Below are positions 25,323 to 37,556 of a stretch of 44,463 nucleotides of DNA, one piece after another. The DNA comes from Candidatus Woesearchaeota archaeon (GTDB lineage Archaea; Nanobdellota; Nanobdellia; SCGC-AAA011-G17; GW2011-AR20). The stretch lies in assembly GCA_018302465.1 (NCBI GenBank), contig JAGVZQ010000018.1, positions 1 through 44,463 of the forward strand. The letters run 5' to 3'. Under the pieces are notes generated by a model that searched no databases, was not told the DNA's origin, and saw only the letters and a program-made list of their open reading frames with translations. Position 1 is the first letter of the stretch; each line of letters starts with the position of its first letter. Both the position numbers and the translations under genes were made by a program.

Positions 25323-26030
25323 TTAACTGATTCTAATCTTGTAAAGAGGGAGTGCCGGAGCGGTCAAACGGGCTGGATTTTGAAATCTTTCATAAAAAAG
25401 ATTCAGAAGGCTTAGCTTAGGAGTTTGACTGAGACACCCAGTATTTTCATTTACAGAATAATTCAATAAACTCATAAAAAACATAGACAAAGAAATTAGC
25501 CATAAACCCAAATAACCTAAAAAGACAGGTATCATAATGTAAGATTTCTTAAGTAAATTAATATACTCCTTTTCATTTATTTTGAAATAAGAAAGGAAAG
25601 TAAGATAAGCAATTACAAGAAATATTAAAGACAATACAAGATCAAATCCCTTAAAGATAAGAAGTATAAATAATATGTAGGATATTAAACTGAAAACAGA
25701 AAAATAAACTAAATATAATTTTTTCTTATTGAGATAATAAAAGTTCAGACCCTGAAATATAACGTAAACTAAAAAAATTATAACAGGAATAATAATTAAA
25801 AGAGTATAAGCAGTGCCTGCAGCATTACCAATATTATTTATTAAATTCTGGGCGCCTGCAGCATCTACATTTGGATCTATAGCATTAATCTGCGGAGCGT
25901 AGGCATAAATAACAGTCAATAAACTTTTTAATTTAAGTTTTGCATAAACTAAAAATAATCCCAAAAATAAGACAAACCCTATATCTAACAAATAAGTTCT
26001 AAAAATATTTTCTTTGATTGTTTTTTTCAT
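25323..26030 (-). CDS. Five-helix membrane protein, last gene of the murein-hydrolase operon
   Basis: The 235 residues include about five transmembrane helices (near 14-32, 70-96, 103-125, 128-147, 162-186). The extracytoplasmic loop after helix 1 contains NAIDPNVDAAGAQNLINNIG. The last 30 residues overlap, in antisense, the tRNA-Ser-like relic, so the original C-terminus may have been shorter. It starts three bases after the giant gene's stop. It may anchor or export its neighbours, but nothing in the sequence proves that. Confidence 0.72.
   Translation of the reverse strand: MKKTIKENIFRTYLLDIGFVLFLGLFLVYAKLKLKSLLTVIYAYAPQINAIDPNVDAAGAQNLINNIGNAAGTAYTLLIIIPVIIFLVYVIFQGLNFYYLNKKKLYLVYFSVFSLISYILFILLIFKGFDLVLSLIFLVIAYLTFLSYFKINEKEYINLLKKSYIMIPVFLGYLGLWLISLSMFFMSLLNYSVNENTGCLSQTPKLSLLNLFYERFQNPARLTAPALPLYKIRIS
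25346..25386 (+). pseudogene. Degenerate tRNA-Ser-like 5' half
   Basis: GAGGGAG, TG, a class-II-type D arm CCGGAGCGGTCAAACGG and CTGGATTTTGAAATC resemble the first half of a tRNA-Ser(TGA). A few bases on, GATTCAG pairs with CTGGATT like the other side of an anticodon stem, but no T arm or acceptor complement (CTCCCTC) follows. The region also reads as the 3' end of the membrane-protein gene on the other strand. It is probably a relic; a split or heavily altered tRNA is less likely. Confidence 0.4.
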
Positions 26031-26033
26031 ATT

Positions 26034-29000
26034 TTAAGCGAAAAATTGATTTGCTCCATCAACTATAGATAAAGCAATCTTTTCCTGAGTTCCTACATCT
26101 AAAAGTTTTACTCTGTCTCCAGGGCTGCATAAATATCCAAGCTCTACTAAAATTGCAGGAGCTTCAACACTAACGCCAAGGCTATCCTGTAAAACACTAA
26201 AATCCGCTCCGCTAATACCTCTGTTCTTAGTTCCAATATAATTCACAATAAGGGGCTGGATTTCTTGAGCTGCTCTAAGGCTTTCATCATAATATTCATT
26301 CTTAATTTTGCACTGGTTTAAAGAAACAAAATTAGTAACTCCATCCTGTAAAGAGTCTTCATCTTCAGCACAAAAAACATAAGCTTCAGTCCCATCAACG
26401 CATTCAGTCTGTAAATTATTTATATGAACGCTTAAGAAAAGATCAGGATTATATGAGTTAGCAATTTGTTTCCTTCGGTAAAGACTGATATAAGAATCAT
26501 CATTCCTGGTCATAAAAACAGTCGCTCCATTTTTTTCAAATTCTCCTTTAAGTTTCTTAGATATATCAAGCACAAGATCAGATTCCTTGATAACTCTGCC
26601 ATTTTCATTATGGGTAGTCCCGCCATCAGTTCCACCATGTCCTGAATCAATAACTATAGTCTTTCCGTTTAACCCTATAGAAAAAATAGGTTGTAATTGA
26701 TTAGAATTTTCAGATAATTGGGCAAAATTTAAAGAGTTAATAATATCAATCTGTTCTTGTGTAAGCATGTTTCCATCAGCAGTGTCAGAAGTTGAAGCAA
26801 CAGGATTCCAATTTACTTTATCAAAACTCCACTCCCAAGTTTTACTAATATCCTCTTTATAATAAGTAGTATCTACTGAACTTTCAGAAACAGGAGTATA
26901 TGAATAGGTGCTATCAGGAGCAGGTCCATCAAATTTATTAACAGTAGCAACTAAAACTGCATCCTTAACAGCATCTATAGTAGGATTATAATTTTCAAGA
27001 TAACCAATAAACTCCCTATGACTTTGAGGCAATGCTTGTTGGGCATTATTTTCTCCTTCAGCTGATTGTACAAGATTCCAGTTGGTTTTTTCTGAACTCC
27101 ACAACCATCCATTATCATATTTATAGTAAAGAGCATCTGCTACTGCAGAAGCAGGATCATATACCAGTATTCCATCTTTGTCAGGAACAAACGTAGATAA
27201 AATAACTTCCCCTTGTTCCTTGCTTAATATGACAGACCTAGTTGGAACAGTAAGAGTAGTTTGTCCACCTGTTGCTTCATTACCTGATACTTTATTAACA
27301 AACTTATTCTCATTATCTAATTGATAAGTGCCATCTTTTTCTTCTGAAAATAATAATGAAATAAGTTTAGGATCAACATCCATCCTTTCTAGCAAAGCCT
27401 CATTCTTTTCTCCCTGAGCAATATTAAACTTGCCATCCTGATCTACATAACCAACATAATAATCAAATGAATTACTTCCCTTAAGTATAGGATAATCAGC
27501 ATCAATAATCCCCATATTTTTTATATCTAGCAACTTGCCATTGTTTATATAATATTTATCTAGTCCTGGATATTCTATGTATAATCTTGCACTAGAAAAG
27601 AATTTATCAGAATATTTTAAAATAAAATCTTGTCCATCTGGAACAGTAGGTACATCAGGAGCAGGTGCAGAATTTGTTGCCTCATTAAGTATCTGTGCTT
27701 CCCTGTAAGCCTTTACAGAAACACACTTATCCTCGGACCATGCACAATCAAATACACAAGGATCCCATTTCTCACACTCCACCTCATCTTTATAAGCAGA
27801 ACATTTTTCTCTTTGAACGGTATTACATGAAAAACATTCATTAAGTGTTAGAAGGTTGGGAGATGTTTTTGAATTATATAAACAGGACCCCATATCTTTA
27901 GTCCTTTGATGACATACATCTTTGTTATGAGAAGAAGGAGAAAAAATAGTTCCAGCATTAATGTCAGAACAGGCATTACTATCAACTAATTTAGACCCTC
28001 TCTCTATTCTACATTGTTCTTGTGTCAGTTCTCTTTTGCTAACAGATCCGCCATAACAAGGAAAATAACCTATTTCCTCATAATAACCCATTTCCTCATC
28101 ATTGACACAATAGTAAACATCATCAGATACACAAAGAGTGAAAGTTGCTGTAGCCTCTCCAGTTATCTGAGATGTTTCAGTTGTACTAACCTCCCCAACT
28201 TTACTTCTTATGAGCTCATTGAAACTCTCATCCTTAGCCAAAGCAAGATATATCTGTCCAATTCTTAATTGAGCCAAAGCCCCAAAGTCAATAGACTTAG
28301 CAGCAATAAATCTTAAACTGCTTTCATCATCTTCATTGGAAATAAATTTAATAAACTCTTTTTTAATTTCATCTCCAAAAATACCTTCTTCATTAAGTAA
28401 AATATTAAACATATCTTTCTCAATCAGTGCATTATAAATTACATTAAACTTATTCTCAAATTCTTCTCTTGTAAGGCCGAGACCTAAATCATCTCCAGTC
28501 TCCTTTTGTACTATATTCTTAATATTCTCATCTACAATCTCCTTATTGTTAAGTCTTATAGTTCTTGTATCAATCCAGCATTGTCCTAATTCAAGACCTT
28601 CTTCATCCTCTCCACATTTTCCAACAGCCTGCCAGTTACCTTCAACACCACCAGTGCCAGGATTGCTTATGCTGCAGACTCTGATTAAACCTCCAGTAAC
28701 ATCTCCAAAGCTAGTGGGCCCACCAATTGCAGGACCAGTTTCATCTTCAGGGACACACTCTTCTTTTGTTTTTATTTCTTTATTCAGTTCATTAACAACA
28801 GTCTTATCTGTGATGTATTGAGCGCCAAATTCAGTTGTTGCTCTTCCAAATCCGCAGTTTAATTTTCCATTAATCTCGACGCAAATTTCAGCATATCCAC
28901 TCCTTCCTATAAAATCAAGATTCTTGCTTACAAATTCTCCCTTAGGAACAAACCCTCTCGCACTTCCTCCAGCTCTATCAGTAACATAAGCAACATTCCC

Positions 29001-32000
29001 TAAATTATCTTTTAAGTAAACACTATACCTGATATCAGTAGCTCTTCCAGCATAAATATGATAAAATACATTATATCTTGATTGCTCTTCAACATTGCTG
29101 AATATTCCTTCTGCTCTGTTTAACCTTGTATCACCTGCGCTGCTTGCCCAAGGATACTCATCAAAGAAAGCTGTAAACTGTGGAGGACTATCTGGTGTAG
29201 TTATCTGATCTATAAAGTTTCCAACACCTGGAACTGTGCCTGCATAAACATTCCTACATACTTCAGTCCCAACTTGTCCTAAAGATCTTGACTTATAAGA
29301 TGCCAAAGCAGATGTTGAATAATCATCAACAAAGAACTTTGCTGAATCTCCTGTTTGTTCCAGTCTCTTTGAAAATTCACCAGGAGAATATTCTCCTCCC
29401 CCCTCAGTATTACTTAATAATCTATCTCCTATAGAAGAAACAATTCCCCCAAAACTTGAAATCACTGAGGTACTTTCTCTCCACAAGGTTTCACAAATAA
29501 ATACACTTTTTATCTTATCACATATTCCTACATTTTGCCCTGTTGCTTTTGAAGTTTGTAAACATTGTTCATATCCCTGAAACAAACTTCTTATTCCTTC
29601 TAAACCAGATTGTACACCAGGTAAACAGACTGGAACTAGGTCAGTTCCTCCAGCCCCAACAAAGTTTGGATAGCCAAGAACTAAGGAGCCAATTATTCCA
29701 GTCTCAGGAACACTATCAACATTCCATCTGCCTCCTAAGTTAAACCTGGAAGTAGGGCACATAACAGGATCACAGACATTAAATATAATCTGACAGTCTC
29801 CCGCACTCATAACATCAGTACAATGTATCTTGCTGCTTATCTCTTGATTTGCTGAACTTGAAAAACTACAGATAAGATTTCCTACTCTTGTTGTTCCCGG
29901 CTTACATAATCCAGCTCTTGCAACTGCTTGTTTCAATTCCTGCTCTTTTCTCAAATTTAATTTAACTAAACTGTCAGAAGTTATTATTACATCATCATTA
30001 TCACACATCACTCCATTAGGTCCGACATTTCTTTCATCAACTGTCTTTGGAGTTCCATCTCCATAATATTCTAATACTCTTACATAATTCCCATTTGAAG
30101 TAGGAACACAGAACGGCCTGCCATTCTGATAAAATTCTACAACTCCTGGCCTAACATAACTCTGCCTTATTCTCTCTCCAAAATAGTTTTCTGTTTCAGA
30201 ATAATAGTATTTGCCTGCTTTATCTCTATATAATGTACTCCCACTTTCTGTAATAACTACATTATTAAGACTTCTTTCCAGCTTTGTCTTTAAATCCAAT
30301 AATCTCCTATTTTTAGGATCATTTTTTATTCTTTCATTTAATGTAACAAGATACTCACTGCCTTTAACTTCCTCAATAATAACTATGTTCCCATTAGGAT
30401 CAAGTGCCTTGCCATCCACGTAAAATACAGGTTGAATATCGCCAAATTCTTCAATGACAGTTTGACTCTGTACAGCTTGCGATAATTGATTTAATCTTGT
30501 ATCAAATACCTCCTTTGCAAAATTATCTCTCTCACTTCCGCTTAATCCACTCTTACTTGTAGCAGTATTAGAGTAATCTCTTGCAGCAGTTATATCACTC
30601 TTAGTCTTTTCTAAGCTTGCTTGTTTTGCTTTTAATTGCTCATCTAAGGAATTCAAGTTTTGGCTTTCAATCGCATATTCAACACTTTCAGGATTTAAAG
30701 TCTTAAGCTTATCCTCTGAACTTCTTACCTGTAATTGAAGTAAATTTAAATCTCTTGCATCACTTTGAGGTATTAATATATCTGCCCGACTACTAAGTTT
30801 ATACTGAGAATATTCAGCAGCATAACCAGTTTCTAAAAATTCATTAGCAGATTTAATATTTCCTGCTTCTTCATTTATTCTTGCATTGATATAATCTTTA
30901 TTTTTTATCACACATTCATCATAGTTTGAATAATCCTTGCCAACTCCGCTATTCTTGCTACAGTATTGACCAAAACCACTCTTCCCATCAGCCCCCCTCA
31001 TCACAAGATCTCTTGCTTCAGAAACCTCACTACTTACAGTTAATAAATTCTTTAAGGATATAAATGCAAAAACACCTATACATATTGCCTTCCATGTTTT
31101 TACAGTTTTATCTAATCCATCAATAATTCTATCAAGTTTTTTAATAACAGCTCGCGTAGCATTTATCTGTGAATCTATCTGTTCCGTATTAAACTGAATA
31201 GATCTTCTTTCTATTGGAATATTAACATCCACAACGCTAATGCTTTTACCAACCCCTGTTCCTGGAAGTACTGTAACATAGGCCTGCTTTTTAGTATCTA
31301 AACTAATTATCTGTAATACTACAGACTTATCGCCATTGGTTTGTAAAGTTTTTACCTCATCTAAGTTAACAGTTTCAGTTCTTCCTTTTATTGTAGAATC
31401 TTCTGAAAATATTTGTCTTAAAATAATTCTGTTTGAAGCAATGGAATCAACAATCCAGTTGAAATTTCTGTTCTTGTCATCCACTCCATTAATAACAACA
31501 TCAGTAACCTTAAGTGTTTTCTGCTCGTTATTAATACTTAGTGTTACCGTTGGCTCTTCTTGTGCACTCACTCCATCTAACCTGGTAAATTTAACCTTAA
31601 TATTTTCATCTTCCAAAAATACTTCAGCATTGCTTAAATCCAGATTTTCAGATATTTGTCTGTTTATTTCTTCTTTTTCCTCATTAGCTTTTGTAAATAA
31701 CTCCCCCCCACTCACTAAACTATACGCAGATAACGCTTGTCTTTTATAAAATAAATTATTCTCGCTTAATCCCTCATAAGCTTGTCCTAAATAATAATAT
31801 GCTGAGTTCAGTTCATTTTCCTCTAATCCTCTGGATATAGACTCTTTTATCTCTGCTATAGACTTACAATACAATCTTATACTGGTCTGTGTTAAAGCAT
31901 CTGCATCCTCAAATTCTACATTCTGGCAGACATCTTCATCTTCTGCTACAGCAGTTGGAGAAGACTCTTCCTTTAATTCAAGGGAGTAGGTTGCTCTAAC

Positions 32001-33560
32001 TTTGTTTGTAGCTTCAGTAATAGTTATCCTTCCATCTTTATTAGCATCTAATCTAGAATTTTGATTATAGGCTATTGTTCCAGAATTAAATATTACAAAA
32101 TTAGAGTCTCTGCCAATACCATTAGGATATAACACAGCCATATACACATCTTCGAGATTACCTAACCTAATCTTATCTTTATAGCTATTTAAATAATTCT
32201 TAACTAAATCAAGTTGGTTTATAGAGGACATTGTTCTCAAACTATTTGTACTCGTTCCTAAACTGTCTGCTGTACTTGGTAAAAATTGTATCAAACCCAA
32301 TGCATTGGAATCAGAATTTTCTGCCCTAGGATTAAACCCAGATTCAAAAGCCATAACAGCCATTAAATGATTAGGATTTATTCCCAGATCATTAGATATA
32401 ACCTCAACTTTATTAACAAACCCAGATTCAAATTTGTTTGCATATTTTTTATAACCAGCAGAATTCACATCAACCTTATTAATACTAGCTGAAAAAGATG
32501 AAACAACAGGCTCTGTTTTCTTGCTAAGGTAAACAATCTTCAAGCTCTTCCTTTGCCCCTGGTTATTAACAATAATAACTTCATCATATTGTGTATCTTC
32601 TTTAATTGAATTTTTTATTCTCTCAACTTTCCAGTTGCTTCCAGGATATAATCTCTGTCCCTCTACTAAGTTATATACATCTCCATTTATTTCAAATGTA
32701 GCAGTATCTTTTGGTAAAATGATATCATTTAATCTAACTCTAAAGAAGCTATTCTGAACCGGTCCAAAATCCTGCAACCTAATCGGAGAGCTAATCTCAC
32801 CTCTGTTGAGAGTAAAAGTTCTTATTCTCCTTAATCTCCCATCATAAACGCTTAAAGTAACACCCTCATCACTTATTTTATCAGCCCTGATATAACCGCT
32901 GTTTGACCAGAAAGATGCCTTGCCATTTTCATTGATCCAGTTTTCCTCATCAGTTCTTTCAATTAATCTTAAATCCTTTGAGCCAAAACCAGAGAGAGTA
33001 TTCTCAAGATCAAATCTAATATCTAAGGTTATTTCAGCATTTATAGTAGCTCCGCCACCTGCACTCAAACTAGCCCCGCCAGAGCTAATAGAAGCTAATG
33101 TATCATTAAATTCAGGCAATTCATTTTCATTTGTCTTTCTCAGTTCAACTATCAAATAGCCCATATCAAAAAATCTTCCATTATTATCTACAACATATCT
33201 CTTGTCTCTAGGTTTGATGTACTGGACATTAGAAACAATATTATTAGTGCTCTTTCTTCCAGAAATTGCAACTCTCTCTATTTGAGGAATTCCAAACAAA
33301 GGTGAACTGCTTGGTGAATTATCTGCAAAAGCTAAACTACCTAATGTAGCGCCTTTCAAGTACACATAAACAGGCACATTCTGCTCTTCTAAAACATTAG
33401 TTGGAACTATTGTAGGCTCAATCTTGTCAACATTTACAATTATCGATTCTCCAGTGTCTTCAATCGTATTAGAAAATATAGGAATATTACTTTGCGCACT
33501 TGCAAAGCTACTTGAAACTATTAAAACCATGCAAAGTATTGAAAATATTTTATTTATCAT
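26034..33560 (-). CDS. Giant secreted protein with lytic transglycosylase and amidase domains
   Basis: The 2508 residues begin with a Sec signal peptide (about 1-22, ending SFASAQ). Beta-rich domains reach about residue 360. An SLT-type lytic transglycosylase follows (about 375-520), with the catalytic Glu in AFESGFNPRA near 405, GLIQFLPSTA, and a C-terminal EF-hand-like DANKDGRITITEA near 503, an arrangement typical of phage and secretion-system murein lysozymes. Coiled-coil and Cys-rich regions fill the middle, with one possible membrane helix near 815-835. The C-terminus (about 2297-2508) is Amidase_3 with all key residues: DSGHGG, KESDL, SVHIN, VELGYL. Archaea lack murein, so bacterial walls are the likely substrate. 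Confidence 0.88.
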   Translation of the reverse strand: MINKIFSILCMVLIVSSSFASAQSNIPIFSNTIEDTGESIIVNVDKIEPTIVPTNVLEEQNVPVYVYLKGATLGSLAFADNSPSSSPLFGIPQIERVAISGRKSTNNIVSNVQYIKPRDKRYVVDNNGRFFDMGYLIVELRKTNENELPEFNDTLASISSGGASLSAGGGATINAEITLDIRFDLENTLSGFGSKDLRLIERTDEENWINENGKASFWSNSGYIRADKISDEGVTLSVYDGRLRRIRTFTLNRGEISSPIRLQDFGPVQNSFFRVRLNDIILPKDTATFEINGDVYNLVEGQRLYPGSNWKVERIKNSIKEDTQYDEVIIVNNQGQRKSLKIVYLSKKTEPVVSSFSASINKVDVNSAGYKKYANKFESGFVNKVEVISNDLGINPNHLMAVMAFESGFNPRAENSDSNALGLIQFLPSTADSLGTSTNSLRTMSSINQLDLVKNYLNSYKDKIRLGNLEDVYMAVLYPNGIGRDSNFVIFNSGTIAYNQNSRLDANKDGRITITEATNKVRATYSLELKEESSPTAVAEDEDVCQNVEFEDADALTQTSIRLYCKSIAEIKESISRGLEENELNSAYYYLGQAYEGLSENNLFYKRQALSAYSLVSGGELFTKANEEKEEINRQISENLDLSNAEVFLEDENIKVKFTRLDGVSAQEEPTVTLSINNEQKTLKVTDVVINGVDDKNRNFNWIVDSIASNRIILRQIFSEDSTIKGRTETVNLDEVKTLQTNGDKSVVLQIISLDTKKQAYVTVLPGTGVGKSISVVDVNIPIERRSIQFNTEQIDSQINATRAVIKKLDRIIDGLDKTVKTWKAICIGVFAFISLKNLLTVSSEVSEARDLVMRGADGKSGFGQYCSKNSGVGKDYSNYDECVIKNKDYINARINEEAGNIKSANEFLETGYAAEYSQYKLSSRADILIPQSDARDLNLLQLQVRSSEDKLKTLNPESVEYAIESQNLNSLDEQLKAKQASLEKTKSDITAARDYSNTATSKSGLSGSERDNFAKEVFDTRLNQLSQAVQSQTVIEEFGDIQPVFYVDGKALDPNGNIVIIEEVKGSEYLVTLNERIKNDPKNRRLLDLKTKLERSLNNVVITESGSTLYRDKAGKYYYSETENYFGERIRQSYVRPGVVEFYQNGRPFCVPTSNGNYVRVLEYYGDGTPKTVDERNVGPNGVMCDNDDVIITSDSLVKLNLRKEQELKQAVARAGLCKPGTTRVGNLICSFSSSANQEISSKIHCTDVMSAGDCQIIFNVCDPVMCPTSRFNLGGRWNVDSVPETGIIGSLVLGYPNFVGAGGTDLVPVCLPGVQSGLEGIRSLFQGYEQCLQTSKATGQNVGICDKIKSVFICETLWRESTSVISSFGGIVSSIGDRLLSNTEGGGEYSPGEFSKRLEQTGDSAKFFVDDYSTSALASYKSRSLGQVGTEVCRNVYAGTVPGVGNFIDQITTPDSPPQFTAFFDEYPWASSAGDTRLNRAEGIFSNVEEQSRYNVFYHIYAGRATDIRYSVYLKDNLGNVAYVTDRAGGSARGFVPKGEFVSKNLDFIGRSGYAEICVEINGKLNCGFGRATTEFGAQYITDKTVVNELNKEIKTKEECVPEDETGPAIGGPTSFGDVTGGLIRVCSISNPGTGGVEGNWQAVGKCGEDEEGLELGQCWIDTRTIRLNNKEIVDENIKNIVQKETGDDLGLGLTREEFENKFNVIYNALIEKDMFNILLNEEGIFGDEIKKEFIKFISNEDDESSLRFIAAKSIDFGALAQLRIGQIYLALAKDESFNELIRSKVGEVSTTETSQITGEATATFTLCVSDDVYYCVNDEEMGYYEEIGYFPCYGGSVSKRELTQEQCRIERGSKLVDSNACSDINAGTIFSPSSHNKDVCHQRTKDMGSCLYNSKTSPNLLTLNECFSCNTVQREKCSAYKDEVECEKWDPCVFDCAWSEDKCVSVKAYREAQILNEATNSAPAPDVPTVPDGQDFILKYSDKFFSSARLYIEYPGLDKYYINNGKLLDIKNMGIIDADYPILKGSNSFDYYVGYVDQDGKFNIAQGEKNEALLERMDVDPKLISLLFSEEKDGTYQLDNENKFVNKVSGNEATGGQTTLTVPTRSVILSKEQGEVILSTFVPDKDGILVYDPASAVADALYYKYDNGWLWSSEKTNWNLVQSAEGENNAQQALPQSHREFIGYLENYNPTIDAVKDAVLVATVNKFDGPAPDSTYSYTPVSESSVDTTYYKEDISKTWEWSFDKVNWNPVASTSDTADGNMLTQEQIDIINSLNFAQLSENSNQLQPIFSIGLNGKTIVIDSGHGGTDGGTTHNENGRVIKESDLVLDISKKLKGEFEKNGATVFMTRNDDSYISLYRRKQIANSYNPDLFLSVHINNLQTECVDGTEAYVFCAEDEDSLQDGVTNFVSLNQCKIKNEYYDESLRAAQEIQPLIVNYIGTKNRGISGADFSVLQDSLGVSVEAPAILVELGYLCSPGDRVKLLDVGTQEKIALSIVDGANQFFA

Positions 33561-35482
33561 ACAAACTCCGGCAATCTGAAATTATTATTCAGATTATTTC
33601 TTTCAATAGTATCATAATTATTAATTAAATCATTTTGTGTTAATGAAGTTTCTTGTACAATTGTATATAATACCAATTCATTATTCCCTGCTAAATCTTC
33701 TCTATTTATCCTATAATCAAATGAGTTTCCTCCTATTAATACATGGTCTAATTTGGCTTCTTCTAATGTCTGTTTAACACATTTCTCTCCAACAAATAAA
33801 TTTCCAAATATGCCCAGTCCTAAAGGCTTTGAGCACGTATTTATTTCTTGTTTAGGAATAATCACTTCTCCATTTTGCAGAACATTAATGTTTAGTTTAT
33901 AATTCCCTTCTCTTAGTTGAACTGAAGTTAAACTTGGATAAGTAGCAAAATAGCTATATCCATTATCAGCGGTAAACTCAATATTTACAATCTCATTACT
34001 GACATCCCTTACAGTTCCTGTTTCTTTGTCTATTAAAATTACCTTAATAGTTTTAGTATAAACTGATTCTAAAGTTAATGAAACACTTGAAACTGCATTT
34101 GTGTCTAATGCTAATTCTGATTTATCATAACCTTCTTTCTCAACAATTATCTTTCCGTTCAGACATTGTGGGAATCTCTCATTTAGTCTTCCATTAACAG
34201 TCTTTCCTATATCGCATACGGAGCTGAAGCATTGGAAAGTAATATCCACATCGTCTATAGGCAGAAGAAAGTTATCTTCATTAAAACCAAGAACACTCAC
34301 ATCCAGATTATGATTCCTTACCTCGCAGACATTAAATTCATCATTTTCATTAACAGTATTAAGTTCAACCTGATTTTCTCTTGCCTGGTTATTATCAACT
34401 ACTACCATGAATGCATATTGGAAAATATAGCCCTCTTCCTCTAAGGTAACCAACACCGGATAAGACACATCATAAACAAAATGGTAGCTGTTTAAGCATA
34501 AAAATCTTGATAAATACTTAAAAGGGCCCTTATTCTCTATAATACTTTCTCCTTTCATAATATCTCCATTATCAGGCATAACTTGCATATTAAACGGCCA
34601 ATTAGTTGAGTACCTGAAATTTACATTAGCAGTGCTTCCTATTCCTAAACTGTAATATTTTTCATTGCCAGAATTCTTTACATTTTGCACATTTGTTTCT
34701 ACAATTTTCTTAAAGTCATCTTCCACTTTGCTTTTTTGCCATGTCTTTTTATCACAGCTAAACCCAACATTAGTTCCAGGTATCTCATCATAAAGCACAA
34801 TCATATCTATAGTCATTTCTTCAAAGAACAAATTCTGGTTTTCTTTCTCCATTATTTGCCTGCCTAAAGAATAAAGTTTGCCTAATTTGACATCCAGAAT
34901 AACAGAAAAACTGTTCAGGTTTGTTTTTATCCCATTAAATGTAACTTCCAATGGGCTTTCAACATTAATTAATATTTGATTATTTTTTATGCTGACATCC
35001 ACATTAGTATCTGAATTATAATCAACATTATATACATCTAATTGCTTCAGGTTTTCATAGCAGGAATTAATATTACCCTTTATATAATCCTCTAATTCTG
35101 TTTCTAAATCTTGTTGAGAAGGTATATTTACTGTGTTAATGCCATTAGGTGTTTTATAAAACCAGTAATTTACATTTAAGGCACCATTTCCAAACAAGTC
35201 TAAACTATCCCCAAACTTAACTAAAGGATTTTTATTAAAACTCTGCTCTAAATTAGCCTTCCCGCCTTGCAATCCAATTAAATCAGCGCCATCTCTTGCT
35301 ATATCTAATATGCATGACTCCATGAGGCTTTTTGCAGGAACTAATTCTGGCCTTACTTCTAAATCTATTTTAGATTGCTGTAACAGATTATTGCCAACTA
35401 AATAAAATGATAAAACAATTACTGCAACTATAATAATCCCTATAAGAATGTAAATGCTGGTCTGACCTCTTTTTTTTAGCAT
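33557..35482 (-). CDS. Pilin-like membrane-anchored surface protein
   Basis: The protein is 641 residues from the ATG at 35482; a TTG two codons earlier is less likely. KKRGQ followed by TSIYILIGIIIVAVIVLSFYLV is a class III (type IV pilin-like) signal and anchor, with likely cleavage before the Gln. The rest is extracytoplasmic and beta-rich, with a PEGA/carboxypeptidase-regulatory-like segment near residues 445-475 (GKIIVEKEGYDKSELAL). The stop overlaps the ATG of the giant gene (ATGA), so the two are coupled. It may form a stalk or scaffold for the giant protein, which is inference. Confidence 0.8.
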   Translation of the reverse strand: MLKKRGQTSIYILIGIIIVAVIVLSFYLVGNNLLQQSKIDLEVRPELVPAKSLMESCILDIARDGADLIGLQGGKANLEQSFNKNPLVKFGDSLDLFGNGALNVNYWFYKTPNGINTVNIPSQQDLETELEDYIKGNINSCYENLKQLDVYNVDYNSDTNVDVSIKNNQILINVESPLEVTFNGIKTNLNSFSVILDVKLGKLYSLGRQIMEKENQNLFFEEMTIDMIVLYDEIPGTNVGFSCDKKTWQKSKVEDDFKKIVETNVQNVKNSGNEKYYSLGIGSTANVNFRYSTNWPFNMQVMPDNGDIMKGESIIENKGPFKYLSRFLCLNSYHFVYDVSYPVLVTLEEEGYIFQYAFMVVVDNNQARENQVELNTVNENDEFNVCEVRNHNLDVSVLGFNEDNFLLPIDDVDITFQCFSSVCDIGKTVNGRLNERFPQCLNGKIIVEKEGYDKSELALDTNAVSSVSLTLESVYTKTIKVILIDKETGTVRDVSNEIVNIEFTADNGYSYFATYPSLTSVQLREGNYKLNINVLQNGEVIIPKQEINTCSKPLGLGIFGNLFVGEKCVKQTLEEAKLDHVLIGGNSFDYRINREDLAGNNELVLYTIVQETSLTQNDLINNYDTIERNNLNNNFRLPEFV

Positions 35483-35484
35483 AA

Positions 35485-35607
35485 TCAATCCCCTTTTACC
35501 CTCTTTTTTATAAGATCCATAATTTCTGTATTTATATCTTTCTTTAAACTAGATTTAAATTTCTCCCATAATTTTTCATCCTCAATTAGAAGAAGGTACT
35601 TTTTCAT
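35485..35607 (-). CDS. 40-residue ORF upstream of the pilin-like gene
   Basis: The frame encodes MKKYLLLIEDEKLWEKFKSS followed by a Lys-rich helix ending KKRVKGD. Helical propensity and charge resemble small RHH-like or leader peptides. It ends three bases before the ATG of the pilin-like gene, whose GGGG ribosome-binding site lies inside this ORF, and an ATTTAAATA box lies about 25-30 bases upstream. It could be a real small protein or a translated leader. Confidence 0.45.
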   Translation of the reverse strand: MKKYLLLIEDEKLWEKFKSSLKKDINTEIMDLIKKRVKGD

Positions 35608-35642
35608 CAAAATTAACAACTCTTATCACTATTTAAATATTT

Positions 35643-35671
35643 CTTAGTTACTTACTTAGTTACTTACTTAG
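35643..35671. repeat. 12-base tandem repeat at a gene end
   Basis: CTTAGTTACTTA occurs twice (35643-35654, 35655-35666) followed by CTTAG. On the coding strand the unit contains TAA codons in several frames, starting with the stop codon of the 258-residue gene (35664-35666). Confidence 0.8.
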
Positions 35672-36440
35672 TAAGTAAAACTTTAATAGTTTTTATATGA
35701 GAATAAAGCATAACTGCCGAGCTTATCATGTTCATGTTCATCTTATAAGCAGTATCTAACCCATCTTTAATTATTAATACATTATTTAAAATCCTGTCAG
35801 AATAAGCCAAGCTCTGAGAAGATATTCTCTGCCTGATAACAAAGAAAGGAGTTTTATTAAGCTCTTCTTCTATCTTAAAATGAAAAAGAAATCCACTTTG
35901 CAGACTAGTTTTTAAATTATTAATTCTCTCAACACGGGCCTCATTTACTAAATCATCGCCTCTGAAAGCCATTTCTTTATTTCTTAATAATTTAAAGAAT
36001 AGCATATTTAACCTATTGTTAAAATCAATTTTCTCTTCCTGAGACCTAAGCCCAGGCAGCTTATTAAGTATATTTCCTGTTTGATCAAGAAAGCTATCCT
36101 GCCATTCAACAATTTCTTTGGCAAACTGGATGTTGTTGTTTAATGGGGTGCCAATTTCATCCAGCATTTTCCATGCTCTTGAAAGGTTAATAGCCTCGAA
36201 CTCTGAATCCTTTCTGCCCATTGCATTCCTTATTTCAGTAGTAGTAGGCTGAATTAAAGAAAAAGTTCTTTCCATAATGTCAATATCAGATTTAAAGACA
36301 AAAAAGGGATAGAATCTCTCTTTTATTTTCTCATTAGAAAGAGGAAATGAAATATTTCTTTTAATATCTCTGACAATTGGAACGCTTTCTATATCTAAGG
36401 TCTTTGGACTCAACTGATTTAATCCATGTATGTATATCAT
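35664..36440 (-). CDS. Uncharacterised helical protein at the head of the giant-protein operon
   Basis: This 258-residue protein is predicted mostly alpha-helical, with no signal peptide or clear membrane helix. It opens MIYIHGLNQLSPK and includes ERFYPFFVFKSD and FRGDDLVNEARVERINN, but no motif I can tie to a family. It is the first gene on the minus strand before the 40-residue ORF, pilin-like and giant genes. A 56-base gap with a new TATA-like box follows, so it may or may not share their transcript. Confidence 0.65.
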   Translation of the reverse strand: MIYIHGLNQLSPKTLDIESVPIVRDIKRNISFPLSNEKIKERFYPFFVFKSDIDIMERTFSLIQPTTTEIRNAMGRKDSEFEAINLSRAWKMLDEIGTPLNNNIQFAKEIVEWQDSFLDQTGNILNKLPGLRSQEEKIDFNNRLNMLFFKLLRNKEMAFRGDDLVNEARVERINNLKTSLQSGFLFHFKIEEELNKTPFFVIRQRISSQSLAYSDRILNNVLIIKDGLDTAYKMNMNMISSAVMLYSHIKTIKVLLTK

Positions 36441-36569: not shown

Positions 36570-37556
36570 ATGAAAAAACTGGAGAACTATTTAGAGCGTA
36601 TAGACGAAAATATATTTATTCACGGTTTAGATTTGAAAAGTTTTCATTGCAAACATAGTAAAAAAGTAATGCCTATAATAGAGAATAAATTTCATTTTTC
36701 TACATATTACTACTGGATCCAGGGAAAGAGTCCAATTCCAATAAGTGTCCTAAAGATTTTTTCTAGAGTAGATAAAAATGTACTAGACAAAGCATATAAA
36801 GAAATGAAGGCAGCATCCGTTGGAAATAAAAAAATATTTCTTCCAAAAAAGTTCGATAAAAAACTAGCATACCTTATAGGCTCAATACATGGAGATGGAG
36901 GGATGCATAAAAACCAAAAATATGTCACAATAGCAAATGATTCAAAAGAATACCTAGAAGATATGATAAGCATATTATTCCAAGATATATTTAAAGTAAG
37001 AACTAGAGTATCTAAATTTAAAAATATTTACAGAGCAGAAGTAGGAAGCCGAGCTGTATGTTCCTTCTTATCATTATTCTGCCCATTCGGGAAAAAAACA
37101 GGACTACTCCATATACCAAAAGAGGTTAAGTCAGATGAAAAGTTAAAAATAAGCTATCTTTCTGGTTTGTTTGATACAGACGGATGCATAGGCTATGGAA
37201 AAAATAACACATATTTCACATTTGTACAAAGAGACAAAATATTCGTTTTCGAGGTTTACGAATGCCTAAAATCACTTGGAATACATGTAAATGAACCAAA
37301 AATATTTTATTCCCCTGTAAAACCATATAGCGAGGGAAGAGATTTAGAAGAGTGGAGAATCTACATAGGATCAAAAAAAGATTTATACAACTTATTGTCC
37401 AAAATAAGTTTTTATCACCCAAGTAAAAAAACTAAAGCAGAAAAAGTAAAAGTTATAGTGGGCTTGGTAGGATTTGAACCTACGACCTTCTCCATTTTAA
37501 GCTCTGCTCGTCAAGGAAATGTCATAGCCTCTAGACCACAAGCCCACAAAACCTAA
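36570..37556 (+). CDS. LAGLIDADG homing endonuclease-like protein 3
   Basis: The frame is 328 residues; the first 295 are a normal double-motif endonuclease with LAYLIGSIHGDG at 99-110 and YLSGLFDTDG at 196-205. An HTH-like part precedes the first motif. From about residue 296 the frame is the antisense of tRNA-Val (the GFEPTTF-type pattern of a tRNA read backwards), so the C-terminal tail is an accident of position and no earlier stop exists. It has its own TATA-like ATTTAAAAGG near 36540 and is not inside an intron. It may target a tRNA gene. Confidence 0.82.
   Translation: MKKLENYLERIDENIFIHGLDLKSFHCKHSKKVMPIIENKFHFSTYYYWIQGKSPIPISVLKIFSRVDKNVLDKAYKEMKAASVGNKKIFLPKKFDKKLAYLIGSIHGDGGMHKNQKYVTIANDSKEYLEDMISILFQDIFKVRTRVSKFKNIYRAEVGSRAVCSFLSLFCPFGKKTGLLHIPKEVKSDEKLKISYLSGLFDTDGCIGYGKNNTYFTFVQRDKIFVFEVYECLKSLGIHVNEPKIFYSPVKPYSEGRDLEEWRIYIGSKKDLYNLLSKISFYHPSKKTKAEKVKVIVGLVGFEPTTFSILSSARQGNVIASRPQAHKT
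37459..37545 (-). tRNA. tRNA-Val (GAC) with 14-base intron
   Basis: Exons total 73 bases. Acceptor GGGCTTG/CAAGCCC, discriminator A, D stem GTC/GAC, anticodon stem TTTCC/GGAGA, loop TTGACG-T after splicing (anticodon GAC), T arm GTAGG-TTCAAAT-CCTAC. The intron sits at the canonical 37/38 position. The fold is a textbook bulge-helix-bulge: TTGA pairs with TTAA, with 3-base bulges CGA and AAT. The third LAGLIDADG ORF runs into it on the opposite strand. Confidence 0.94.
37495..37508 (-). other. tRNA-Val intron (position 37/38)
   Basis: The intron AGCAGAGCTTAAAA is bounded by cuts after the second base of each 3-base bulge, the standard EndA geometry. Confidence 0.88.

Follow-up and report, generated by a model that had tools for sequence, protein, structure and literature searches.

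A secreted protein of 2508 residues and its pilin-like partner, encoded by a Woesearchaeota archaeon, probably form part of an apparatus for surface contact in small archaea, one bearing domains that cut bacterial murein; we assign this reading a probability of roughly 0.6. The genes lie in the window, the whole stretch of DNA analysed, which is a single contig of 44.5 kb from a metagenome-assembled genome (MAG) of 748,631 bp, estimated to be 97.7% complete and 0.18% contaminated. The evidence comprises the domains with their catalytic residues, a secretion signal, the coupling of the genes, their conservation, the turnover of the enzyme domains and the lack of Mur ligase in the genome. The nearest sequenced relatives are Woesearchaeota MAGs recovered from groundwater.

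The giant protein and its operon

The features of the operon, all on the minus strand, are the following:

26034-33560, minus strand: giant secreted protein, whole gene, 2508 aa, a single open frame without internal stop
33492-33560, minus strand: Sec-type signal peptide, residues 1-23, a hydrophobic stretch followed by ASA-Q
32511-33560, minus strand: conserved N-terminal domain (NT), residues 1-350; its own profile matched 65 proteins of the order set
31968-32429, minus strand: SLT lytic transglycosylase domain with EF-hand-like tail, residues 378-531, with Glu406 (Pfam, PDB)
30717-31922, minus strand: trunk part C1, residues 547-948; its own profile matched 71 proteins
28527-30215, minus strand: trunk part C2, the Cys-rich conserved core, residues 1116-1678 (45-row alignment)
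26673-28526, minus strand: variable linker or tail, residues 1679-2296; its own profile matched close relatives only (3 proteins)
26037-26672, minus strand: Amidase_3 domain, residues 2297-2508 (Pfam, PDB, active-site residues)
33557-35488, minus strand: pilin-signal partner P2, 641-643 aa, with a KRGQ class-III signal
25323-26030, minus strand: polytopic membrane protein P3, 235 aa, beginning 3 bases past the stop of the giant

The first-pass annotation, made from the letters of the window, had described a secreted protein of this length joining an SLT and an Amidase_3 domain with all zinc and catalytic residues, and the open reading frame, the Pfam and PDB matches and the motifs bear this out. 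The SLT domain was recognised by Pfam (PF01464) at residues 391-462 (1.4e-9, 38 bits against a cut-off of 21.3), and residues 378-531, which include the EF-hand-like stretch DANKDGRITITEA, matched the PDB entry 9udh, 'lytic transglycosidase', with 2.8e-30. Its active-site residues are in place, with Glu406 and the ES, GLIQF and AYN motifs all present, and the column of the catalytic Glu holds E in 58 of 60 rows of the SLT alignment. The Amidase_3 match (PF01520) covers residues 2302-2503 (2.1e-41, 142.3 bits against a cut-off of 27), and residues 2298-2505 matched the amidase 4rn7 with 6.7e-20. Residues H2308, E2326, H2379 and E2473 sit in the expected motifs, and from knowledge of the family we take them to be the zinc ligands and the catalytic Glu. 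Membership of Amidase_3 is thus given by profile and residues, and cleavage of the MurNAc-L-Ala bond is predicted. A hydrophobic N-terminus is present in 80 of the 81 trunk proteins that retain the N-terminal domain.

P2, which has 643 aa if translated from TTG and 641 from ATG, overlaps the giant gene by 4 bases (ATGA). It begins with a class-III pilin-type start, MLKKRGQTSIYILIGI, in which [KR][GA]Q followed by an N-terminal hydrophobic helix is found as KRGQTSIYILIGI; the proposed ATGA coupling of the giant to a pilin-signal protein of 641 residues was therefore confirmed. Strict [KR]GQ occurs in 77 of 101 P2 relatives, and most of the others listed have AQ or near variants. Within the order, P2 was directly upstream of the trunk gene and on the same strand at all 63 loci with an identifiable neighbour, the commonest overlap being -4; the loci outside these 63 were ten contig ends and four in which the giant or its N-terminal part is split. 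In other families the pair of P2 and trunk was present at 39 of 40 loci, the remaining one being cut by a contig edge, so that P2 adjoins the trunk gene at all 102 identifiable loci class-wide. This joint inheritance suggests that P2 may hold the giant at the surface. As a prepilin peptidase match and secretion-ATPase matches are present in the genome of the window, P2 can, by prediction, be processed and then anchored or assembled at the base or tip of a filament.

P3 is the polytopic protein that had been noted three bases after the giant. It was directly downstream of the giant at 38 loci of the order, is weakly conserved and was mostly not found beyond the order. Upstream of P2, a gene of 258 aa (35664-36440) has relatives restricted to the closest genomes; the expectation of a same five-gene order in other genomes was consequently not borne out, and the conserved unit is P2 plus the giant, with P3 common within the order, that is, two or three genes. 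Profile searches of the PDB with P2 and P3 gave no credible relative (the P3 match was a designed helical protein), and AlphaFold2 on P2 with a 3-sequence alignment reached a mean pLDDT of 45.3.

The trunk and its wall enzymes

More than 100 loci were taken from relatives and their ORFs were called. Relatives of the giant occur in 82 of 103 order genomes, and the profile of C2 matched 186 of the 371 genomes sampled from the phylum, over the full length in some families and with the central motif only in others. The C2 alignment of 45 rows has 14 invariant Cys columns; these cysteines fit a presumably disulfide-bonded extracellular protein. A helix in C1 (residues 825-843; 31032-31088, minus strand) has a conserved Cys and is moderately hydrophobic, with a median peak hydropathy of 1.29. 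It may insert into the membrane or pack in the core; if it were transmembrane, the two enzymes of the giant would lie on opposite sides of the membrane. Searches of the PDB with trunk profiles gave no credible relative, and AlphaFold2 on C2 with a 3-sequence alignment gave a mean pLDDT of 30.6. On a quick core tree of 73 rows, 17 changes of family label were counted against a minimum of 16, and this near-minimal number argues that the trunk was inherited vertically. In one genome (G010) the trunk gene apparently occurs twice, in diverged forms on separate contigs (L079 and L096).

The enzymes carried by this trunk vary in kind and in place. The SLT domain follows the N-terminal domain in the family of the window and a few others, lies inside C1 in G064 and G065, sits in the C-terminal tail in many others and is encoded by a separate neighbouring ORF in L059 and L097; its position needed 16 changes on the trunk tree (73 rows, quick tree). 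Amidase_3 was found in 5 of the 103 order genomes, two at the C-terminus of the giant, two elsewhere and one on a contig piece that is followed by P3 and probably represents the end of a fragmented giant. Other giants bear Amidase_2 (L045), VanY (L067), NlpC/P60 (L077) or M23 (L080, L083 and G036, with an internal M23 in G059), and at L059 an M15 domain is on a neighbour gene. The 3D domains on the giants of L033, L036 and L037 scored 25.6, 26.3 and 23.1 against a cut-off of 23.8, and a DPBB match in L100 was slightly under its cut-off (27.4 against 28.8). Amidase_2, M23, VanY/M15, NlpC/P60 and 3D domains have unrelated folds and murein as common substrate. In several modules, as in the protein of the window, a domain cutting glycan strands is joined by one cutting peptides.

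By our own count, at least 34 order genomes carry a murein-cutting domain of some kind within the module, a lower bound since contig ends truncate many giants. The trunk module accounts for about 1% of each genome, and by the same kind of count about 27 of the 97 SLT-bearing ORFs of the order fall in it. There are also many trunk proteins with no recognisable wall enzyme. The wall enzymes are variable add-ons to a much older, vertically inherited trunk. The name of murein-cutting protein given in the first-pass annotation therefore holds for the member in the window and not necessarily for the ancestral function, since the enzymes vary on the older trunk.

Some candidates were discarded. All glucosaminidase matches were under the cut-off, and those in G064 and G065 overlie the SLT domain; weak Pfam matches in the tails (Tox-REase-5, HH_signal, A2M and similar), also under the cut-off, were disregarded.

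Side observations were made on the same genomes. Outside the trunk module there are about 70 ORFs with SLT and many with M23, in order genomes almost all of which gave no Mur ligase match. One of the proteins outside the module (L106, G016:C34; 711 aa) has an SLT-like and an Amidase_3 domain, the catalytic Glu of SLT being replaced by Thr. SGNH/GDSL hydrolases were recognised by Pfam beside the wall cutters in the giant tails of L033, L036, L037 and L045.

Beyond the order, small-genome families with a full-length trunk hold SLT (5), M23 (3) and Amidase_3 (2) in inserts or tails. The distant families, mostly with larger genomes, have giants with fn3/Ig-like repeats on which no murein hydrolase was recognised. 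At most of their loci the operon continues with a protein of about 190 aa having an N-terminal helix and then with a secreted protein of 480-1065 aa, in which domains are shuffled. SLT is on the downstream genes in L168, L169, L172 and L177, and PDB searches gave phage-lysozyme-like similarity for the downstream gene of L174, SGNH hydrolases for those of L165 and L173 and a weak match to an AmpDh2-type amidase for that of L163. The fact that wall enzymes are fused in one branch and on a separate gene in another suggests that the parts would work together.

By PDB match or local similarity, SGNH/GDSL hydrolases were also seen on the downstream genes in L160, L164, L165, L172 and L173; these might act as lipases or as deacetylases of murein or polysaccharides. 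The downstream secreted protein of L173 (L173:3590-6667, minus strand) starts with a stretch, DDIKVMTYNIRYACGHDE, that by eye resembles an endonuclease/exonuclease/phosphatase domain.

Substrate and relation to known systems

Both SLT enzymes and N-acetylmuramoyl amidases cut murein, which contains muramic acid, while pseudomurein is without muramic acid. A profile search with one family, the Mur ligase middle domain, gave no match in the genome of the window, so that murein-precursor genes, which would have spoken against the proposal, were absent from it as judged by this family. The same domain was present in just 5 of the 103 order genomes, as a single ORF each and with no pathway. Among the matches listed, the SLT+EF unit is 44-48% identical over nearly its whole length to tailed-phage proteins, mainly of phages of Gram-negative hosts (291 records). 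One of these relatives is encoded beside baseplate genes and another is a short separate gene annotated as lytic transglycosylase; similar domains occur on bacterial plasmids as well. The phage relatives of the amidase domain are mostly from phages of Gram-positive hosts, and these matches do no more than hint at a Gram-negative target. The absence of Mur ligase, the specificity of both enzyme types for muramic acid and the phage-like SLT domain point to bacterial murein as the likely substrate. The earlier suggestion that the enzymes of a murein-less archaeon act on bacterial walls was strengthened by the missing ligase, the order-wide trunk and the recurrence of unrelated murein hydrolases.

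A protein family of this kind is already in the literature. Castelle et al. (2021; PMC8204110) described fam00969, a family of Pace- and Woesearchaeota with proteins of up to about 3000 aa, and put forward bacterial walls as its target. It resembles the giant in lineages, size range, SLT domain and the bacterial-wall idea, and the giant very probably belongs to it, matched by size, domain and lineage, not by sequence. The main text names a transglycosylase only, and the trunk, P2, the other cutters and their turnover are absent from the passages concerned. Vigneron et al. (2022; PMC9723730) proposed 'vampiristic' Woesearchaeota with large GH23 lytic murein transglycosylases, read as predation on bacteria; these enzymes rest on CAZy annotation, and the passages concerned describe no operon or amidase. 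In what both papers state of these proteins, the family and the bacterial-wall idea are thus published.

Secreted archaeal peptidoglycan hydrolases kill bacteria, as shown for Halogranum, and Nanoarchaeota are rich in them (PMC12352652). Like the giant, they are archaeal enzymes aimed at bacterial murein, but they are smaller and consist of a catalytic and a wall-binding domain, whereas the giant has its catalytic domains on a conserved trunk with P2. From the virion-associated lytic transglycosylases of tailed phages, to which its SLT+EF unit is so similar, the giant differs as a cellular, vertically inherited carrier in an operon with no phage structural genes. VirB1/TraG-type murein hydrolases of T4SS (e.g., of Patescibacteria, PMC12102498) also have SLT and a second murein-cutting domain in one large protein; however, the producer of the giant is without murein and passage through its own wall would not be the role. 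SPEARE and the giant surface proteins of Nanohaloarchaeota (PMC6642349, PMC10266531) are other very large DPANN proteins discussed in connection with cell contact, known for archaeal hosts and likened to the giant by their descriptions only.

In the open-licence literature we found no description of exchangeable unrelated cutters on a vertical trunk, of the P2 partner or of the version with separate genes. The class-wide trunk with adjacent P2, the turnover of the cutters and the separate-gene enzymes of a distant branch appear to be new. That a vertical trunk has repeatedly gained unrelated murein cutters in murein-less organisms is stronger evidence for a bacterial target than one transglycosylase. 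The presence of one scaffold and partner gene across the class, with differing cutters swapped in, suggests a shared means of acting on bacteria. The finding bears on whether many such archaea live on bacteria; it also supplies small domains that can be expressed and tested directly, and an operon that can serve as a marker of DPANN archaea dealing with bacteria.

Proposed working and rival explanations

In the proposed apparatus, P2 would be processed by the prepilin peptidase and would be anchored in the membrane or assembled there. The giant, exported by the Sec route, would bind P2 through its Cys-rich, presumably disulfide-bonded trunk, displaying the cutter of glycan strands (SLT) and the amidase releasing stem peptides (Amidase_3), which could jointly open the murein of a touched bacterium. 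Exchangeable cutters on an old trunk would be expected if they tracked changing bacterial partners or prey. Surface location, binding of the partner, enzyme activity, target, and host entry, killing or feeding are all predictions from sequence. A more ambitious version, a single ancestral class-wide apparatus for breaching envelopes, made of P2, the Cys-rich trunk and in many members a membrane protein, whose murein-cutting heads, fused or neighbouring, are swapped according to the bacterial hosts or prey, is tentative, and we hold it to be slightly more doubtful than not; if true, these archaea would regularly have bacteria as partners or victims. The ancestral function may have been plain adhesion, because no wall enzyme is recognisable on many of the trunk proteins.

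The strongest rival to contact-dependent opening of murein is scavenging, in which the surface protein would digest wall fragments of dead bacteria for amino sugars and peptides, with no attack. A glycan cutter and an amidase on one protein also suit loose murein, and small DPANN genomes are poor in biosynthesis (e.g., PMC8204110). However, the phage-like SLT domain, with one relative beside baseplate genes, and the universal pairing with P2 fit contact with an intact wall better, and we consider scavenging unlikely. Anchoring by P2 would make a diffusible weapon unlikely and stays compatible with scavenging. The domains might instead bind murein or other glycans without cutting, for attachment, as the fn3/Ig-like repeats of the enzyme-free distant trunk proteins and the attachment proposed by Castelle et al. 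(2021; PMC8204110) would allow; the catalytic Glu kept in nearly all SLT rows, the retained ligand residues of the amidase and the pairing of cutters of different bonds make such a pure adhesin quite improbable.

It would be still less probable that the enzymes act on the envelope of the archaeon itself or help to assemble a secretion channel of its own, the role that VirB1-type transglycosylases have in bacteria. Bacterial secretion systems are accompanied by SLT domains and the polytopic P3 follows the giant, but the genome gave no match in the search with the one family, Mur ligase, and the few matches elsewhere in the order are isolated ORFs; remodelling of own murein was accordingly rejected. 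Finally, since the source is a MAG and the enzymes have domains of bacterial or phage type, the contig could be a chimera or bacterial contamination. The archaeal proteins eS8 and TFIIB are encoded on the same contig, in agreement with the original description of the surroundings as clearly archaeal, relatives with 52-56% identity occur in two further public MAG records and the trunk tree tracks the genome families. A chimera, named at the outset as what would overturn the proposal, is practically refuted by the order-wide conservation of the giant, and we give it next to no credence.

Two other loci in the genome of the window were recorded apart from the apparatus with predicted murein-cutting domains. 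Just beyond the operon, an ORF at 36570-37556 (plus strand) is LAGLIDADG homing-endonuclease-like, and a tRNA-Val prediction on the opposite strand (37458-37545) overlaps its end. At G000:C1:9854-10426 (locus L109), a second SLT protein, which stands alone and has 190 aa, shows ES and GLMQ motifs, and its contig also encodes a protein of 212 aa whose pilin-type start resembles that of P2.
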